DNA from: a virus
Direction: 5' to 3' (one strand)
Length of the DNA stretch: 33,515 nt
Virus record (IMG/VR): IMGVR_UViG_3300021478_000085
Span: 1 to 33,515 of that record
Below are positions 11,872 to 17,955 of the stretch, in pieces. The notes under the pieces are model-generated. The model was not told the DNA's origin, searched no databases, and saw only the letters and a program-made list of their open reading frames with translations. Position 1 is the first letter of the stretch; each line of letters starts with the position of its first letter. The position numbers and the translations under genes are program-made.

Positions 11872-12149
11872 CGTCGTCTCTCCCTTGCCTGTTCCCAGGT
11901 GTCAATCACCACGCGTTCCTTCTTCGCCCGCGCCTCCACGTCCGTTACCTGCCTCCCGGCCACGATCTCGGTGTGCGAGGAGTAAGGCCCGGTCACGTAG
12001 CTGAAGTCCGCGACCTCATACAGCCGCCCGGCCACGTTCACGTAGACCGGGTCCGGTGCCCAGGAATCGAAGCTCGATCCCTTGCAGGGCGCGACAAGCT
12101 CGCGCAGGAACCGCAGTGAAATAGTGCCGTCGTTTCGTTGGTTGCTCAT
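11868..12149 (-). CDS. Hypothetical protein, 93 aa
   Basis: The start is MSNQRNDGTISLRF behind AGGAGATCC. The sequence is beta-rich (DPVYVNVAGRLYEVADFSYV, HTEIVAGRQVTDVEAR) with a basic helical end (DTWEQARERRR). Unrecognised. The gene lies about 190 bases downstream of structured element A; that gap (12150-12341) contains no convincing gene. Confidence 0.72.
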   Translation of the reverse strand: MSNQRNDGTISLRFLRELVAPCKGSSFDSWAPDPVYVNVAGRLYEVADFSYVTGPYSSHTEIVAGRQVTDVEARAKKERVVIDTWEQARERRR

Positions 12150-12341: not shown

Positions 12342-12401
12342 CGTGGCCGGGCTTGGGAACCGGCCTGCCGCATTAGGGCCGCGTAGCGGCCCCCCTCTGC
12401 G
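12342..12401 (-). ncRNA. Structured RNA-like element, copy A
   Basis: On the minus strand CGCAGAG (12401-12395) begins the element. A seven-base-pair hairpin follows (GGGCCGC, TAC, GCGGCCC; 12392-12376), then TAATGCGG, then a second hairpin GGCCGG / CCGGCC with a nine-base loop (12365-12345). CGCA and TGCG can pair around the first hairpin. This is the most diverged of four copies: GAGTGA is here GAGGGG, and no ribosome site follows at once. The gene before it ends four bases upstream if read through its frame change. Confidence 0.72.
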
Positions 12402-12404
12402 TGA

Positions 12405-12609
12405 CTACTTCTGTCCCGGCTCGCGGGTCAACAGCGCGTACAGGGCCTTCTCCTCGTCGCGCAGCATGCGCGCTTCCAAGGGCGGCGCGTCCGCGATCTT
12501 GCTTCCGCACCTCGTGCCAGCGCTTGGCGGCTTTGCCGTGCCAGCGGCACTCGGTGTTCCAGCACTCGGGCCAGCCGCCCTTCAGGTCACACTTGCTTTG
12601 TCGTTTCAT
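12405..12609 (-). pseudogene. Cys-rich small protein gene with a frame break near 12501
   Basis: The ATG at 12609, behind AGGAGACCCAGACG, opens MKRQSKCDLKGGWPEC, WNTECRWHGKAAKRWHEVRK. Then the frame turns into Arg/Ala-rich sequence that runs into element A. Skipping one base at about 12501 joins it to a natural-looking end, KIADAPPLEARMLRD, EEKALYALLTREPGQK, with a TAG at 12407-12405, right before element A as for the other copies. The total of 67 residues would have three Cys and several His. The cause could be a real mutation, a programmed +1 shift or a sequence error. Confidence 0.62.
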
Positions 12610-12815
12610 CGTCTGGGTCTCCTCTGCGTCTGCTTGCTCGGCGGCACGCTGGTGTAGAACCCGCGCGCGGCCACGAAGCCGGTCGTCGCGGGCCATAGCT
12701 CGTGCGCGCCCGCCTCGCGCGCCTCCTCGTTGCGCTCGGTCAATTCCTGTACCGCCCGGTCGATCAGGTCGCACAGTTCGCCAGCGGTCATCTGCTCTAG
12801 TTGCTCGTTGTTCAT
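12606..12815 (-). CDS. Hypothetical protein, 69 aa
   Basis: It starts MNNEQLEQMTAGELCDLI behind GAGGGAGACGACGACG, and overlaps the next ATG. It is helical in front (DRAVQELTERNEEAREAG), with an aromatic centre and a basic tail (PSKQTQRRPRR). Not recognised. Confidence 0.7.
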   Translation of the reverse strand: MNNEQLEQMTAGELCDLIDRAVQELTERNEEAREAGAHELWPATTGFVAARGFYTSVPPSKQTQRRPRR

Positions 12816-12833
12816 CGTCGTCGTCTCCCTCGT

Positions 12834-13217
12834 TTAGAACGGAACGTCGTCGTCGTCCCAGTGCACCATCACCGGCGGTGGCGCGTTCACCGGCCCATGG
12901 ACCGGATGCGCCCGCTGGTACTCTTCCAGGCGCGTGTAGTGGCGCTTGGCGTGACCGCGCTCGTGGATCTGCTCGCACCACATCTCGAACAGGCCCCAGG
13001 CGTTCTCCATCTCGTACTGCCCCAGGATGCGTCCGGCGGTCTCGGGCAGGTCATAGCGGGCCAGCAGGCGTTCCATCTCCGCGCCGGTCAGGTGGCGCGC
13101 CGTGTGCACCAGCCGGTGCTCTTGCTCGTAGGTCATCGTCATGTCGTCGTCCTCGTCCTCGTCCTCGTTGTCGTCATGGTCCACGAATTCCGTCATGGGC
13201 AGGTAGCGCATCGTCAT
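12834..13217 (-). CDS. Hypothetical protein, 127 aa, with a Glu/Asp run and a possible internal start
   Basis: The start is MTMRYLPMTEFVDH, at an ATGA overlap with GAGGGGGA in front. Residues 14-25 are an acidic run (HDDNEDEDEDDD). It is encoded by GAGGAC repeats, which end in GACGACGAC-ATG-ACG, so an internal start (MTMTYEQEHRLV) with its own purine leader exists. The remainder is helical (GAEMERLLARYDLPETAG, GLFEMWCEQIHERGH) and ends VHWDDDDVPF, an acidic hydrophobic tip of the kind seen in single-strand-binding proteins. Function unknown. Confidence 0.72.
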   Translation of the reverse strand: MTMRYLPMTEFVDHDDNEDEDEDDDMTMTYEQEHRLVHTARHLTGAEMERLLARYDLPETAGRILGQYEMENAWGLFEMWCEQIHERGHAKRHYTRLEEYQRAHPVHGPVNAPPPVMVHWDDDDVPF

Positions 13218-13399
13218 TCCCCCTCGCTCAGTTCCCACTGGTAGGATTCGCGGGCCACCCTACGGTCTTCGATGGTGCACTCCAAGGCCACCATCGAGCG
13301 CTTCCATGCGCGTGCCGCCTGCTCCGCCATGCGCTTGGTCCGGTACTCGCCCGGAAGCTGGCCGCAATCATGGCCGTTGTCCCAATTGATTTTCCACAT
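13214..13399 (-). CDS. Hypothetical protein, 61 aa
   Basis: The frame MWKINWDNGHDCGQL, EYRTKRMAEQAARAWKRSM, ALECTIEDRRVARESYQ is a beta-alpha-beta-sized unit like small phage proteins that carry a modified double-stranded-RNA or AP2-type fold, but I cannot assign it. The leader upstream (13400-13428) is the best copy of the repeated ribosome-binding element. Confidence 0.72.
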   Translation of the reverse strand: MWKINWDNGHDCGQLPGEYRTKRMAEQAARAWKRSMVALECTIEDRRVARESYQWELSEGE

Positions 13400-13428
13400 C
13401 GTCGTTTCTCCCTTGCTCGTATTGTTCA
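13400..13428 (-). repeat. Repeated ribosome-binding leader (best copy)
   Basis: On the minus strand, CTGAACAATACGAGCA, then AGGGAGAAACGAC and the ATG. Related leaders precede the genes starting at 6957, 11871 and 12815, and a variant with a doubled TTACGAGCA precedes 11141. The conserved part spans more than the ribosome site itself, so these are copies of one leader or a protein-binding operator at the RNA level. Confidence 0.62.
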
Positions 13429-13435
13429 GACTACC

Positions 13436-14284
13436 TCAGGCGCACTCACTCCATGCCGCCCCGTCCACTGGGCCAGCGGGCACATAGCCAGCGGCCAGCG
13501 TGCGCTCGATCTGCACCAGCGGCAAGTGCTGCTTGAAGTCATGGCCGATGGCGCGCTCCACCTTGACGTACTCGCCGAGTAACTCCCGGTTGTGATAGCC
13601 CGCGAGTAACAGCGCCTCGGGCGGCGCGTAGAAGCAGAACACGCACGACAACCTCGGCATGCCCAGGTCATAGGCGCGGTGGTACTCGAGGCCGCGCGAT
13701 TTGATGTGCAGCCATACCTCACTCTCGCTCCACCCATGGATCGGCAGCCAGCGCGTCACCTCGCGCCGCGTCAGGTTGGTCGCCGGGTCGTCGCTCACCG
13801 GCTCCATGTCGCGCCGCTTGGTCGACTCCTGCGCGCGCAACCCCAGGCAGTTGAGGATGCGCACGCGCCGGTAGGGCCGCGCCGCCACGCTCCTGCCGCG
13901 CGTCAGGGCGAGCCGTTCGACGGTCTCGTTGACCAGTTGGGTCATCAGGCCGGTCACCGGCTTCGTCTTGTGATCGCTCGTGCAGTAGCGCGTGCTGTAG
14001 CCCGGCCACTTGCCGCGCGCCGCCACATGATCGAGCAGGTCATTCTGCTCGCGCCGCACCACCTCAAAGCGCAGGCCGTAGCGCTTGGCCTGCCGCTCCG
14101 CCAGTTCGCGCGTGCCGCTCCACTCCACGCGTCCGAGATCCGCGTGCACCACCACCAGCCGCTCGCGGTTGACGCCCGCCTCGTCAGCGAGGGTCACGAG
14201 ATAGTCCAGCATGGCGAGCGAGTCCTTGCCAGCGGAAGTGTTGATCAGAATCCAGTCGTACGTGCGCAGGTCCGGTGTCGTCAT
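13436..14284 (-). CDS. Phosphoadenosine phosphosulfate reductase-like PP-loop protein, 282 aa
   Basis: An ATP-pyrophosphatase PP-loop, SAGKDS, stands at residues 17-22. It is followed by VVVHADLGRVEW (second strand of the Rossmann-like fold), YCTSDHKTKPV (Cys and basic residues typical of PAPS-reductase/DndC relatives) and a late CVFCFYAPPEA pair. Members adenylate or thiolate small substrates, tRNA or DNA. In phages such proteins often accompany DNA or nucleotide modification, but no partner gene (IscS/DndA-like or modification enzyme) is visible here. Residues 125-150 are Arg-rich (RSVAARPYRRVRILN). The start overlaps nothing and sits one base after the next stop. Confidence 0.85.
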   Translation of the reverse strand: MTTPDLRTYDWILINTSAGKDSLAMLDYLVTLADEAGVNRERLVVVHADLGRVEWSGTRELAERQAKRYGLRFEVVRREQNDLLDHVAARGKWPGYSTRYCTSDHKTKPVTGLMTQLVNETVERLALTRGRSVAARPYRRVRILNCLGLRAQESTKRRDMEPVSDDPATNLTRREVTRWLPIHGWSESEVWLHIKSRGLEYHRAYDLGMPRLSCVFCFYAPPEALLLAGYHNRELLGEYVKVERAIGHDFKQHLPLVQIERTLAAGYVPAGPVDGAAWSECA

Positions 14285-14285
14285 G

Positions 14286-14564
14286 TCAGTTCAGTTCCTT
14301 TCGGTCAGCCCCGGTCATGGGCTGGACTTCGTCATCGAACGGGTAGCCACTGGCCGCGTTCTGGTCGAACGACTCAATCAGGTCGTCCATCTGGGCGCGC
14401 GTCAACAGGCCCAGGCGCGGCCCGTCCTCGATGCGCGCCGCCATCAACTGCCAGCCGTCGTCGTCCTTGGCCACGTACAGCCGCAGACTCCGCTGCACGC
14501 CGTCAGCGAAGACGTGCTGCCAGCTTTCCACCACGTGGGTGGGCTTCAGGTGTTCGTTCGTCAT
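14286..14564 (-). CDS. Hypothetical protein, 92 aa
   Basis: The start is MTNEHLKPTHVVESW at an ATGA overlap. The sequence is strand-rich (SLRLYVAKDDDGWQLMAARI), then a helical segment (LLTRAQMDDLIESFDQN). Acidic overall. It lies directly upstream of the PP-loop gene with a one-base gap, so they are likely co-expressed. Not recognised. Confidence 0.72.
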   Translation of the reverse strand: MTNEHLKPTHVVESWQHVFADGVQRSLRLYVAKDDDGWQLMAARIEDGPRLGLLTRAQMDDLIESFDQNAASGYPFDDEVQPMTGADRKELN

Positions 14565-14764
14565 TTGCTCTCCTCGGTGGTCTCCGCCACCACGCGGTAG
14601 CGCTTCTGGGGGGCATCGCCCACGATGTAGCCGCGCGTGTACGAGTACTCGTGGCGGATGTTGCGGTAGGGTGATTCGGGGCCAGCCGCGAGGCGCGCAG
14701 TGGCCACCGCGTGCTCGGCCTCGCGCAGGGTCAGGCCGTCGCGCAGGATCGTCGTCGTCGTCAT
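14561..14764 (-). CDS. Hypothetical protein, 67 aa
   Basis: It starts MTTTTILRDGLTLREAEHAV, with a helix continuing to ATARLAAG, then a tyrosine-rich strand part (HEYSYTRGYIVGD, KRYRVVAET). It fits between a two-base gap and an ATGA overlap. The family is not recognised. Confidence 0.7.
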   Translation of the reverse strand: MTTTTILRDGLTLREAEHAVATARLAAGPESPYRNIRHEYSYTRGYIVGDAPQKRYRVVAETTEESK

Positions 14765-14766
14765 GG

Positions 14767-15135
14767 TTAGCTCCGTTCCTCCAGCTTCTCGGCCAGCGCG
14801 TTTGCACCGGCCAGCACGGCCTCGATGTGCTCCGCGCCGCTGTAGTCGTTGATCACATCCCAGCCGTCGTTGCCGTACACGAGCCGGACCCAGCCGTGCT
14901 CGCGTTCCAGCCCGACAATCCGGCGTTCGAGGTGCAGCACGTCCTCGTCAGTGTTGATCAGCGCGTCCAACACGGCCTTGCGGCTGGTGGAGCGGGTCAC
15001 GGCGTACTCGTCGCCGCCATCGTCCACGCTCAGCGTGTAGCCAGCCTTCAGGGCGTCAGTGACGATCCTCTTCACAATGGCCACTTCCATGGCTTGGCGC
15101 TTGCGCACCGTTTCGTTCTCGGGGTTCAGGTACAT
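14767..15135 (-). CDS. Hypothetical protein directly behind element B, 122 aa
   Basis: The start MYLNPENETVRKRQAM follows AGAAGGAGACGACGAAC and lies about 20 bases after the second hairpin of element B. The sequence EVAIVKRIVTDALKAGYTLSV then DGGDEYAVTRSTSRKAVLDAL is familiar to me from plasmid and phage proteins of unknown role found next to DUF932 genes. The second half (GWVRLVYGNDGWDVINDY) may bind a partner through its aromatic residues. Confidence 0.76.
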   Translation of the reverse strand: MYLNPENETVRKRQAMEVAIVKRIVTDALKAGYTLSVDDGGDEYAVTRSTSRKAVLDALINTDEDVLHLERRIVGLEREHGWVRLVYGNDGWDVINDYSGAEHIEAVLAGANALAEKLEERS

Positions 15136-15154
15136 GTTCGTCGTCTCCTTCTAG

Positions 15155-15222
15155 CGTGGCCGGGGTTGTGACCGGCCTCCCGCATTCCAGCCGGGGCACG
15201 TGGCCCCGGGCTGCACTCTGCG
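15155..15222 (-). ncRNA. Structured RNA-like element, copy B
   Basis: Minus strand: TAA stop of the DUF932 gene, two bases, then CGCAGAGTG (15222-15214). A nine-pair hairpin with one bulged C follows (AGCC-CGGGGC / GCCCCG-GCT around CACGT), then GGAATGCGG (CGCA pairs with TGCG). Next is GGCCGG / CCGGCC with an eight-base loop TCACAACC (15177-15158), then ACGCTAG and AAGGAG. The P1 sequence differs entirely from the other copies while pairing is kept. Confidence 0.78.
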
Positions 15223-15224
15223 TG

Positions 15225-16016
15225 TTAGCTCTTCAGCTTCTTCATCTCCTCGGCGAGGGTCCACAGTGCCTTGTTCAGGCGCGTGTTCTCGCTGATGCCT
15301 TCGACCGGGCGCACGCGGGCGCGACGGCCAGAGGTCTGGTTGCGGTAGCGCGTGCCGCCCTGGGTCAGGTTCTCCTGGGCCACGTTGAACGTGTTCCACA
15401 GCGTGGGCTCGGCGTCCTCGGTGCGGCGCGGGCGAACGACGGCCTCGGGCGTGATCGGCGCGGCGTCGTCGTAGCGGAGGGCCAGCGCGGCGGTGGCGAA
15501 CGCGGCGCGCTCGGGCGGCGCGAGGCGCAGGTTGCGGAACGACTCCACCGACTCGAGCGCGCGCGGCATCTGGTCGATGACTTCGAAGCTGGCCTCGATG
15601 ATGCCGTCAGCCGTGCCCCGGTGTGGCACTTTGATCGCCGCCACGATGCCGTCGTCGACCATCAGGCCGTTCGCGCAGACGTAGCGGTACAGGCCGCCCG
15701 CCACCTCGTACGCGCTCGCGCCGTCGTGGCTGTTCGTCACCACCACCTCGGGCACGATGCCGCCCACGCGGGCGACGGCTTGCGCCATGTCCAACTGGCG
15801 GAAGCGGATCTGGTGGCGGGTGAACTCGGCTTTGCCCGGGACGCGCGTCCGGCTCTGCACGGCCTTGACCGGCACGAAGCCCTCGTGGCGGAGCTTTTCG
15901 ACCACCTCGATGGTGGGGATGAAGGCGTACTTGCCGGACATCTTGTGCCAGGGTTCGCTGGCGAAAATGGAAGGCGCGAAAGCGCGCAGTTGATCGTTGG
16001 TCAGTACGTTGGTCAT
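15225..16016 (-). CDS. DUF932 phage/plasmid-type protein, 263 aa
   Basis: The start MTNVLTNDQLRAF lies behind AAAGGAAAACACC. Family signs: FIPTIEVVEKLRHEGFVPVKA, RVPGKAEFTRHQIRF, VVTNSHDGASAYEVAGGLYRY, CANGLMVDDGIVAAI, and the H-R-G-T shortly after. In plasmids and phages DUF932 proteins sit in early/anti-restriction regions, with no proven activity that I know. The gene is bracketed by structured elements C (in its leader) and B (right after its stop), which makes it the strongest candidate for regulation by them. Confidence 0.9.
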   Translation of the reverse strand: MTNVLTNDQLRAFAPSIFASEPWHKMSGKYAFIPTIEVVEKLRHEGFVPVKAVQSRTRVPGKAEFTRHQIRFRQLDMAQAVARVGGIVPEVVVTNSHDGASAYEVAGGLYRYVCANGLMVDDGIVAAIKVPHRGTADGIIEASFEVIDQMPRALESVESFRNLRLAPPERAAFATAALALRYDDAAPITPEAVVRPRRTEDAEPTLWNTFNVAQENLTQGGTRYRNQTSGRRARVRPVEGISENTRLNKALWTLAEEMKKLKS

Positions 16017-16046
16017 GGTGTTTTCCTTTGGTTGCGTTCTGGGGGA

Positions 16047-16113
16047 TTTGCGTGAGCCGGGCTTGTGACCGGCTGGCCGCATTACGCCCGGGCGAAGCCC
16101 GGGTCACTCTGCG
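16047..16113 (-). ncRNA. Structured RNA-like element, copy C
   Basis: Minus strand: the stop TAA of the upstream gene, one base, then CGCAGAGTGA (16113-16104). Then CCCGGGC, TTC, GCCCGGG (16103-16087, seven pairs), CGTAATGCGG, CC, AGCCGG, TCACAAGC, CCGGCT (16074-16055), and CACGCAAA. The ribosome site and ATG of the DUF932 gene follow about 30 bases later. With copy D this is the best preserved copy. Confidence 0.8.
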
Positions 16114-16114
16114 A

Positions 16115-16465
16115 TTAGTGGGAAGGCGTGACGCTCCACCCGCACCCGGTCAAGCGCCGGTACTCGCGGCTGGCGTCGTCCATGGCGGCGCGAGAGGCGA
16201 GCACGCGCCGGTAGTGGTCGACCTTGACGTCGACGTCGTGGTCGGTGTCCTCGGTGGTCACCACCTCGTACCATGCGAACGTGGTCGGTGTGGGCTGGCC
16301 CTCGCGGTACATCACCTCGTACCGCGCCGCGCTCGGGTTACAGGGGTCACAGACCCACCAGTGCGGCCAGAAGGCCACTTTGACCACCGGCTCGCCGGTA
16401 GCGTCCGGCACGATCAGGCGCAACGGCTGGCATCCGCCCGTGCGGTCGGTCAGGGTGTAGGCCAT
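16115..16465 (-). CDS. Hypothetical protein, 116 aa
   Basis: The start MAYTLTDRTGGCQPL overlaps the upstream TGA. The centre is aromatic (VVKVAFWPHWWVCDPCNPSAARY), with a C-x2-C pair next to tryptophans. Then YEVVTTEDTDHDVDV and a basic helical end with CGWSVTPSH. Three cysteines and nearby His allow a metal site. The stop sits one base before element C. Not recognised. Confidence 0.72.
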   Translation of the reverse strand: MAYTLTDRTGGCQPLRLIVPDATGEPVVKVAFWPHWWVCDPCNPSAARYEVMYREGQPTPTTFAWYEVVTTEDTDHDVDVKVDHYRRVLASRAAMDDASREYRRLTGCGWSVTPSH

Positions 16466-16644
16466 CAGCGCACCCCTTCCACGAGCCTAGTGAACGCCAT
16501 CTCGGCGTCGTTGGTCTCCTCCAGGCGCTTGGCCCAGTGGGCGAAGTCGCCCTGGACCTCGTGCGAGAACAGCCAGTTGGAAAGCAGTTCCTTGCGGCGG
16601 GTGGCGAAGGCCACGCGGGTGTTTACTACGTTGTCGAATGTCAT
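16465..16644 (-). CDS. Small helical protein, 59 aa
   Basis: The frame is MTFDNVVNTRVAFATRR, KELLSNWLFSHEVQGDFAHW, then AKRLEETNDAEMAFTRLVEG. The ATG is behind GAGGAGACGACGACG. The stop overlaps the next start (TGATG). Entirely helical; function unknown. Confidence 0.7.
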   Translation of the reverse strand: MTFDNVVNTRVAFATRRKELLSNWLFSHEVQGDFAHWAKRLEETNDAEMAFTRLVEGVR

Positions 16645-16659
16645 CGTCGTCGTCTCCTC

Positions 16660-16920
16660 TTACATCACGCGCTGGCCGTCGCGGTAGTCGATCCAGCGGC
16701 TTTCCCCGTCTTCCACAATCTCGATCTCGGCGGTGGCGTCATGGGCCAGCATCAAAGCCATCTCGATGGCCGAGACGTGCGAGTACATGGCGGTCTCGCT
16801 ATGGCCGGTGTACAGCGTCACCACCCGTTTGCCGTTCCAGCATTCCAGGTTCTCGTTCCTCTGCGGGACCGTGCCGCGCGAGGCGTGCAGGTTCACTGCG
16901 AAGCGCTTGATCTTCTTCAT
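16660..16920 (-). CDS. Hypothetical protein, 86 aa
   Basis: The frame opens MKKIKRFAVNLHASRG, with GAGGAGACCAACC in front. The middle, RVVTLYTGHSETAMYSHVSA and IEMALMLAHDATAEIEIV, ends in WIDYRDGQRVM. It resembles a small alpha/beta protein of two strands, a helix and two strands. The last segment (TAEIEIVEDGESRWIDYRDG) is charged. Not recognised. Confidence 0.73.
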   Translation of the reverse strand: MKKIKRFAVNLHASRGTVPQRNENLECWNGKRVVTLYTGHSETAMYSHVSAIEMALMLAHDATAEIEIVEDGESRWIDYRDGQRVM

Positions 16921-16935
16921 GGTTGGTCTCCTCGG

Positions 16936-17088
16936 TTAGCTCACGCGCAGGTTCTTGCGCACCATCAGCTCGTTGTCCAGGGCCAGTTCAAACTCACGCC
17001 CGTAGCGGGCGTAGCGCCCGCGCTTGACCACGCTGATCAGCGTAGCGGTGGCGATCTTCTCGAAGGGTCTGTTGTTCGTCGTCGTCAT
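16936..17088 (-). CDS. Small basic protein, first gene of the accessory operon, 50 aa
   Basis: The start MTTTNNRPFEKIATA lies behind AAAGGAGACAAC, 12 bases after the end of element D. The body LISVVKRGRYARYGREFEL and NELMVRKNLRVS is basic and strand-rich. As the first gene of the leftward operon it would be translated most. Unrecognised. Confidence 0.7.
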   Translation of the reverse strand: MTTTNNRPFEKIATATLISVVKRGRYARYGREFELALDNELMVRKNLRVS

Positions 17089-17100
17089 GTTGTCTCCTTT

Positions 17101-17176
17101 GCGTTTGCGCGGGCTTGTGAACCGCGCGTGCCGCATTACGCGCTGGCCTTTTCAGGCTGGCCAGCGTCACTCTGCG
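17101..17176 (-). ncRNA. Structured RNA-like element, copy D
   Basis: Minus strand: CGCAGAGTGA (17176-17167), then CGCTGGCC and GGCCAGCG (17166-17159 with 17148-17141) around a ten-base loop, CGTAATGCGG, CAC, GCGCGG, TTCACAAGC, CCGCGC (17127-17107), AAACGCAAA and GGAG. Both hairpins have different sequence but the same pairing as in copies B and C. Unlike A-C, no gene ends just before it: it is the leader of the first gene after the long control region. Confidence 0.8.
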
Positions 17177-17955
17177 ATTTGGTTGATTGGTTTGAAAGGC
17201 CGGGACCATGCGTTTATAAGTGGATTCTCTTTTCAGAGAGTCAGGTGTGTTTCAACCTGTTCACTATCCCGGTCTTTCGTTTTCCATTTGCGATGTGGAC
17301 CTGTCACGTCCACTCCCGTCGCTTTTCGCGTGTACCTTGGGCGGTCAGATGATCTTCGGGACTTACGTTCGCCGCTCTCGGGGGCTTCGCGCGCTGGTCA
17401 CACCAACGGCACGCGATCCTACACACGGTCACCTACGTCCTGGTCAAAACCTACGGGATGGTCAACGGCCTACTCGCCCTACTGCCTGGGTTTTCGCTAC
17501 TTCGCTCGGGGCTATTCAGTTGTCAAGGATCACGCGGTCCAAACGGCGGAAAGCTCTCGGGTCTGGCAGGGAGTGGTCAAACCCACGCCCCCTGGCCGGT
17601 TGGTCATCCCTATGACCGGCGTTCAGCCCCTCGCTTCGTTCCGTTCTCGCCTACACTCTATAAGATGCGCTGGCTGAGTCATTGGTTACCGCATTTCACC
17701 CCAGCCTCGCTTTTCTTTTGTTTTCGAAGATCTCGCAGGCCGTTGCCGTTTCGCTCAACTGCCTACATATACTAAGATGCGCTGGCTACGTCAGTGGTTA
17801 CATGGTTTCGAAAAGAATTCCGGGAGCGGGGTGAAATCCTGGGCCGGTGGCTTAGCGGTTATTTCGGATCTTGATATGCGGCTTTACCGGGGAAGCGGTG
17901 CGGGTTGGGGGAAAGGGCCGGACCTGGAGTGCGGCTGGTTGCGGCGGAAACCGGC
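17177..17955 (-). promoter_or_regulatory. Non-coding control region before the accessory operon
   Basis: About 780 bases with no gene that I can support; the rightward frames here lack ribosome sites and known patterns. It contains a 41-base direct repeat at 17649-17689 and 17761-17801 (33 of 41 identical), each with a TATA-type hexamer on the minus strand (TATAGA at 17662-17657, TATATG at 17771-17766). A further TATAAA lies near 17210. Many TGACC words lie at 17390-17620. A GGGGTGAAAT copy at 17829 and its inverse at 17694 match the repeats beyond 18307. I read it as tandem leftward promoters and operators. Confidence 0.65.
17649..17801 (-). repeat. Two 41-base promoter-like direct repeats
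   Basis: Copies at 17649-17689 and 17761-17801, start to start 112 bases, share TAAGATGCGCTGGCT and GGTTAC. The minus strand reads TGAC, a conserved AGCCAGCGCATCTTA spacer and a variable TATA hexamer, then TGTAGGC. The differences fall mainly in the -10-like hexamer, which suggests two promoters of unequal strength recognised by one factor. Confidence 0.6.

Follow-up and report, generated by a model that had tools for sequence, protein, structure and literature searches.

We analyzed a complete virus record of 33,515 bases, hereafter called the window, in which four short repeated elements (A to D) lie on the minus strand within one operon. The neighborhood is phage-like and includes a Prim-Pol/AAA primase, an SNF2-type helicase, an SU10 adaptor, and a tail-fiber trimerization domain. 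The elements, the genes that adjoin them, and the related copies in the cultured phage Tunturi_4 are listed in Table 1. The starts near positions 12819, 13400, 15140, 16645, and 17080 on the minus strand share a ribosome-site string like GGAGACGACGA(CG) or GAGAAACGACG, a leader motif that recurs in this phage. The open reading frame (ORF) upstream of A (12373 to 12609) has a good frame from the ATG at 12609 and then a second frame ending at the TAG at 12405-12407, and this change of frame suggests a frameshift or an assembly indel.

Table 1. Positions of the type-P5 twister elements and neighboring genes in the window and of the copies in Tunturi_4 (arrows mark predicted cleavage sites)
Feature	Position	Strand	Description
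Copy A, type-P5 twister ribozyme	12347..12401	-	RF02684, 55.2 bits, E 4.9e-09; T1 = GG/CC; predicted cleavage CCCU↓AAUGCGG, between U and A
Copy B, type-P5 twister ribozyme	15160..15222	-	RF02684, 48.2 bits, E 3e-07; predicted cleavage G↓AAUGCGG; T2 covariant, L2 GG with L4 CC
Copy C, type-P5 twister ribozyme	16057..16113	-	RF02684, 52.5 bits, E 2.5e-08; predicted cleavage U↓AAUGCGG; ACGCA further downstream is able to pair with freed UGCG (3' product fold)
Copy D, type-P5 twister ribozyme	17109..17176	-	RF02684, 44.0 bits, E 3.8e-06; before the first gene of this operon part; ACGCA adjoins AGGAG ribosome site (3' product fold)
50-aa ORF	16936..17088	-	After ribozyme D; ribosome site AAAGGAGACAAC-ATG; no Pfam match
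116-aa ORF	16115..16465	-	TAA 1 nt ahead of ribozyme C; no Pfam or PHROG match
DUF932 gene	15225..16016	-	Between C and B; TAA 2 nt ahead of B; PF06067, E 9.4e-38; PHROG 12094
122-aa ORF	14767..15135	-	After ribozyme B; ribosome site GAAGGAGACGACGAAC-ATG; PHROG 5680, unknown function
PAPS-reductase-like gene	13436..14284	-	Within the B-to-A interval; PF01507, E 1.2e-16
Tunturi_4 copy 1	L275 6848-6905	coding strand	Gene end 6822
Tunturi_4 copy 2	L275 7771-7832	coding strand	Gene end 7770
Tunturi_4 copy 3	L275 10006-10063	coding strand	Gene end 10001
Tunturi_4 copy 4	L275 11588-11648	coding strand	Gene end 11587

A cmscan search of the whole window revealed RF02684 (Twister-P5) as the only Rfam family above its gathering score (37.6 bits), with exactly four matches, all on the minus strand; the E values refer to this 33.5-kb scan. 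Each element matches the covariance model over its full length (positions 1 to 58) and has the P5-permuted strand order, that is, CGCAGAG, P1 hairpin, UAAUGCGG, and P4. Judged by this match, A to D are copies of a known self-cleaving RNA class, the type-P5 twister ribozyme. The original prediction of four repeated minus-strand copies was thus well founded, as they are present far beyond chance (E 4.9e-09 to 3.8e-06; exact spans in Table 1), but the element matched a known Rfam family, an outcome that it had itself named as refuting. The core sequence, P1, P2, P4, T1, T2, and strand order are the same as in RF02684, and all scores exceed the gathering cut-off; the only difference is a G at position -1 in copy B, and what is unusual is the presence of four copies at gene junctions of one operon. 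Pistol, hatchet, and twister-sister ribozymes, which are also self-cleaving and come from phage-linked intergenic regions of this kind (PMC4604425, PMC8216279) but differ in their folds, had no Rfam match in the window by cmscan. A candidate fifth, degenerate copy at 16827-16865 was dismissed as a chance regex match within a gene.

Read along the minus strand, the elements consist of CGCA (P2, the 3' strand in twister numbering), GAG, the P1 hairpin, N↓AA, UGCG (P2), GC or GG (T2), and P4 with its loop. The P4 loop holds the pairing partners of both pseudoknots, T1 (L1 with L4) and T2 (L2 with L4). Of the two stems described originally, the first is indeed twister P1 and folds well in all copies (-14.7 to -19.3 kcal/mol), whereas the one labeled P2 is twister P4. 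CGCA and TGCG do pair, as had been suggested, but they form the true P2 and are not merely an outer closure of P1. As to the sequences, copy B has GGAATGCGG rather than CGTAATGCGG, and copy A has CCCTAATGCGG. The pseudoknots had been overlooked; both of these long-range pairings covary within the window, T1 being GG/CC in copy A but UG/CA in the other three copies, and T2 being GG/CC in copy B but GC/GC in the other three. The proposal that structure rather than sequence is under selection was strongly supported, with a covariation score of 0.329 against 0.109 in shuffles, a value reached by none of 500 shuffles.

We further characterized the helices in 32 copies from 7 genomes. In P2, T1, T2, and P4 together, 98.7% of cells were paired and both-side changes affected 38 cells (shuffles, 6.3), and slid controls were all below 45% paired. 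Pairing amounted to 100% in P2 and 96.9% in P4, both-side changes included, to 100% in T1 (types UA, GC, CG, and AU), and to 98.4% in T2. P1 stems were stable, with a median of 7 bp against 5 in shuffles. Besides, the T2 pair was exchanged among about 297 copies in public contigs (C/G, 201; G/C, 68; C/C, 0; G/G, 6); the searches yielding these copies fixed the L4 base and left the L2 base free, and thus the exchange was not built in. Between copies of one genome, the sequences of P1 and P4 diverge strongly, with compensatory changes preserving the core and pseudoknots.

The residues expected for catalysis, namely, AA at and after the predicted cut and GAG of L1, were found in all four copies. 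The base at -1 is G in B and U in the other three copies; a review calls the U 5' of the cleavage site less conserved or nonconserved (PMC5408937). A base other than U at -1 occurred in 8 of 142 copies, copy B counted among the 8, in a set drawn from contigs that hold one or more perfect copies and comprising those of the window. In copy B, T2 remains paired through a double change, which argues that this copy is active. Among the roles proposed originally, the processing of a long mRNA agrees with the identity as a self-cleaving ribozyme, whereas a leader binding a metabolite or protein found no support. A riboswitch-like or protein-binding leader that controls the downstream gene without cleavage would agree with the closeness of B, C, and D to ribosome sites, but it is highly improbable given that the catalytic core is preserved in its twister form, with AA at the cut, GAG in L1, and the two pseudoknots, and that no riboswitch family is among the Rfam matches in the window.

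As the original prediction had stated, copies A to C begin 1 to 4 bases after the preceding stop codon (A, 3 nt after the TAG at 12405-12407; B and C, 2 and 1 nt after a TAA, respectively), and ribosome sites come after B, C, and D, with starts at 15135, 16016, and 17088. An intercistronic position on the sense strand is complete for B and C, whereas A has it on the upstream side only and D on the downstream side only. Downstream of copy A, the nearest callable ribosome site with a start is at 12149, about 200 nt on, and copy D is preceded by a noncoding stretch with no gene end just upstream; thus, some copies do not separate two genes. No sigma-70 promoter or intrinsic terminator was found at the elements beyond the level of shuffles. 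The region upstream of D (17177 to 17955), about 780 bases without a called minus-strand gene, is possibly the operon promoter region, though no sigma-70-like site was found there.

In addition to the window, we investigated public contigs, in which an exact core pattern retrieved 111 stretches from viral contigs and 40 from genome contigs. At least three copies, and up to nine, were present in 19 of the 77 viral records scanned whole (about a quarter), the samples being drawn by exact patterns that favor consensus copies, with redundancy removed by k-mer overlap and with many records being fragments. With the window and Tunturi_4 included, there are 21 arrays of 3 to 9 copies each (109 in total; median gap, 601 nt), and 20 of the 21 lie on a single strand. 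One gene is the commonest content of an interval between copies (20 of 44 gaps, by crude gene calling). Of 138 copies, 83 have the stop of an ORF (50 codons or longer) at -1 to 3 nt on their upstream side, a spacing shown by 2.9% of positions drawn at random from the same contigs, and a start with a ribosome site mostly follows within about 60 nt. This broad sample supports the placement between a gene end and the next ribosome site on the sense strand. The AUG within the ribozyme itself (AAUGCGG) is in frame with the next gene in 67 of 222 cases (P = 0.35), giving no selection signal either way.

The array loci have few genes in common, their content being largely unrelated, and thus most arrays look independent. 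A link between the array and the DUF932 gene was dismissed, since RF02684 matches occurred in none of 19 contigs with DUF932 relatives; the array is therefore not tied to particular genes. The sporadic occurrence of arrays among phages with largely unrelated gene content, the DUF932 relatives without ribozymes, and the repetition of ribozyme-plus-leader cassettes within a single contig, e.g., L009, might instead reflect small selfish or hitchhiking elements that spread among the gaps between genes and are tolerated since a cut at such places does no harm, with no role for the phage. We consider this unlikely, since P1 and P4 differ strongly between copies of one genome and the core and pseudoknots are kept compensatorily, so that activity appears to be selected; the strict sense orientation and tight placement behind stop codons also speak against it.

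The same arrangement is found in the cultured phage Tunturi_4 (PP885687.1; contig L275), on Tunturiibacter empetritectus, whose four copies have the coding-strand orientation and each occupy a gap between annotated genes, three of them 0 to 4 nt past a gene end. Ribozymes go unmentioned in the paper describing this phage (PMC11924767). The gene directly ahead of its first twister ribozyme (L275 5545-6822) is annotated as a porphyrin biosynthesis protein.

Elements A to D match the family, possess all of its helices and both pseudoknots, and are placed between genes; we think it likely that they act as type-P5 twister ribozymes on the coding strand of the phage operon and that their cotranscriptional self-cleavage at gene junctions splits the mRNA. 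During synthesis of the polycistronic mRNA, each ribozyme would fold and then cut itself at N↓AAUGCGG. The upstream message would retain CGCAGAG and the closed P1 hairpin, its 3' end being a 2',3'-cyclic phosphate, and the downstream message would begin with 5'-OH-AAUGCGG, followed by the P4 hairpin and then the ribosome site. The operon transcript would become a series of segments of one or a few genes with hairpin ends. From bacterial mRNA decay in general, hairpin ends and a 5'-OH would be expected to slow degradation, and in such segments the stability and translation of neighboring genes would be uncoupled. Two cuts would also free each intervening segment with ends joinable by RtcB-type RNA ligases, which join 2',3'-cyclic phosphate and 5'-OH ends. 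That stable small RNAs or circular RNAs released in this way are the functional product of the array is nevertheless very unlikely, as the freed segments are gene-length and carry ribosome sites, and an RtcB gene was found in none of 15 array-bearing records, the window included; a host RtcB is possible.

A further lead concerns the leaders downstream of the ribozymes. Among 246 non-redundant leaders, the tetramer CGCA was counted 74 times (dinucleotide shuffles, 21.9) and ranked behind GGAG alone, and it was present in 59 of 169 ribozyme-led leaders versus 165 of 1,716 other leaders in the same contigs (Fisher P = 7.5e-17). It lies either 3 to 12 nt or 13 to 26 nt past the loop CAAGC. In the farther class, the flanks extend the complement of AAUGCGG, with C before in 23 of 41 and U after in 20 of 41 (background, 18%). 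The nearer class has the context ACGCARA, which comes closer to CGCAGA of the ribozyme itself, so that this CGCA may also be a remnant or reflect a twister-like refold. The 5' end was paired downstream in 123 of 187 folded 3' products, against 95 in shuffles, a modest gain, and covariation of the closing pair was weak (P = 0.04), with two of its three cases looking like duplicated TGCAGAG strands. The window's leaders carry ACGCA after C and D and only ACGC after B. The truncated 3' product of D was considered as a type-P1 twister and dismissed, its best match still being P5, as a truncated hit. An additional TGCAGAG strand lies behind P4 in L193 (about 1627-1678) and in L213 (about 910-960), so that one P4 could take part in either a type-P5 or a type-P1 twister; this arrangement is possibly a permutation intermediate or a tandem copy. 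In L009 (2681-5405) and L061 (4585-7244), the ribozyme and its ribosome-site leader repeat as a cassette, with the ribosome site inside a small hairpin (TTGAGGAGACATCTCAA, TTGGAGAGTAGTTCCAA).

From these leader sequences, we hypothesize that the CGCA present in roughly one third of the downstream leaders could form a new pairing with the UGCG set free at the 5' end. As a weaker part of the proposed mechanism, the leader CGCA and the UGCG released by cleavage may form a 5' stem just before the ribosome site, in about a third of the relatives and, in the window, at C and D. A more general scheme is more doubtful and is offered only tentatively: phages may time and again assemble arrays, with as many as nine type-P5 twisters, that cut operon mRNAs gene by gene, after which AAUGCGG would trade its P2 partner for the leader CGCA and make its own 5' stem beside each ribosome site.

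Twister and hammerhead ribozymes have been reported to be enriched near Mu-like phage genes and other self-cleaving ribozymes in a 2023 study of ribozyme permutations, with the biological reason still unknown (PMC10085705). The phage setting and clustering are common to those ribozymes and to the window, in which the copies lie at successive gene junctions of an operon. We found no description of twister arrays in phage operons in the literature searched, whose coverage ended short of the original twister discovery papers, so that an earlier account is possible. The element belongs to a known ribozyme class, and it is the recurrent arrays and the leader motif that lift it above a routine Rfam match. 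Twister ribozymes are abundant and ordinary, but similar arrays recur across many unrelated phages. Arrays on one strand at gene junctions point to operon mRNA processing, and since Tunturi_4 carries four copies and is in culture, this idea is open to direct testing.
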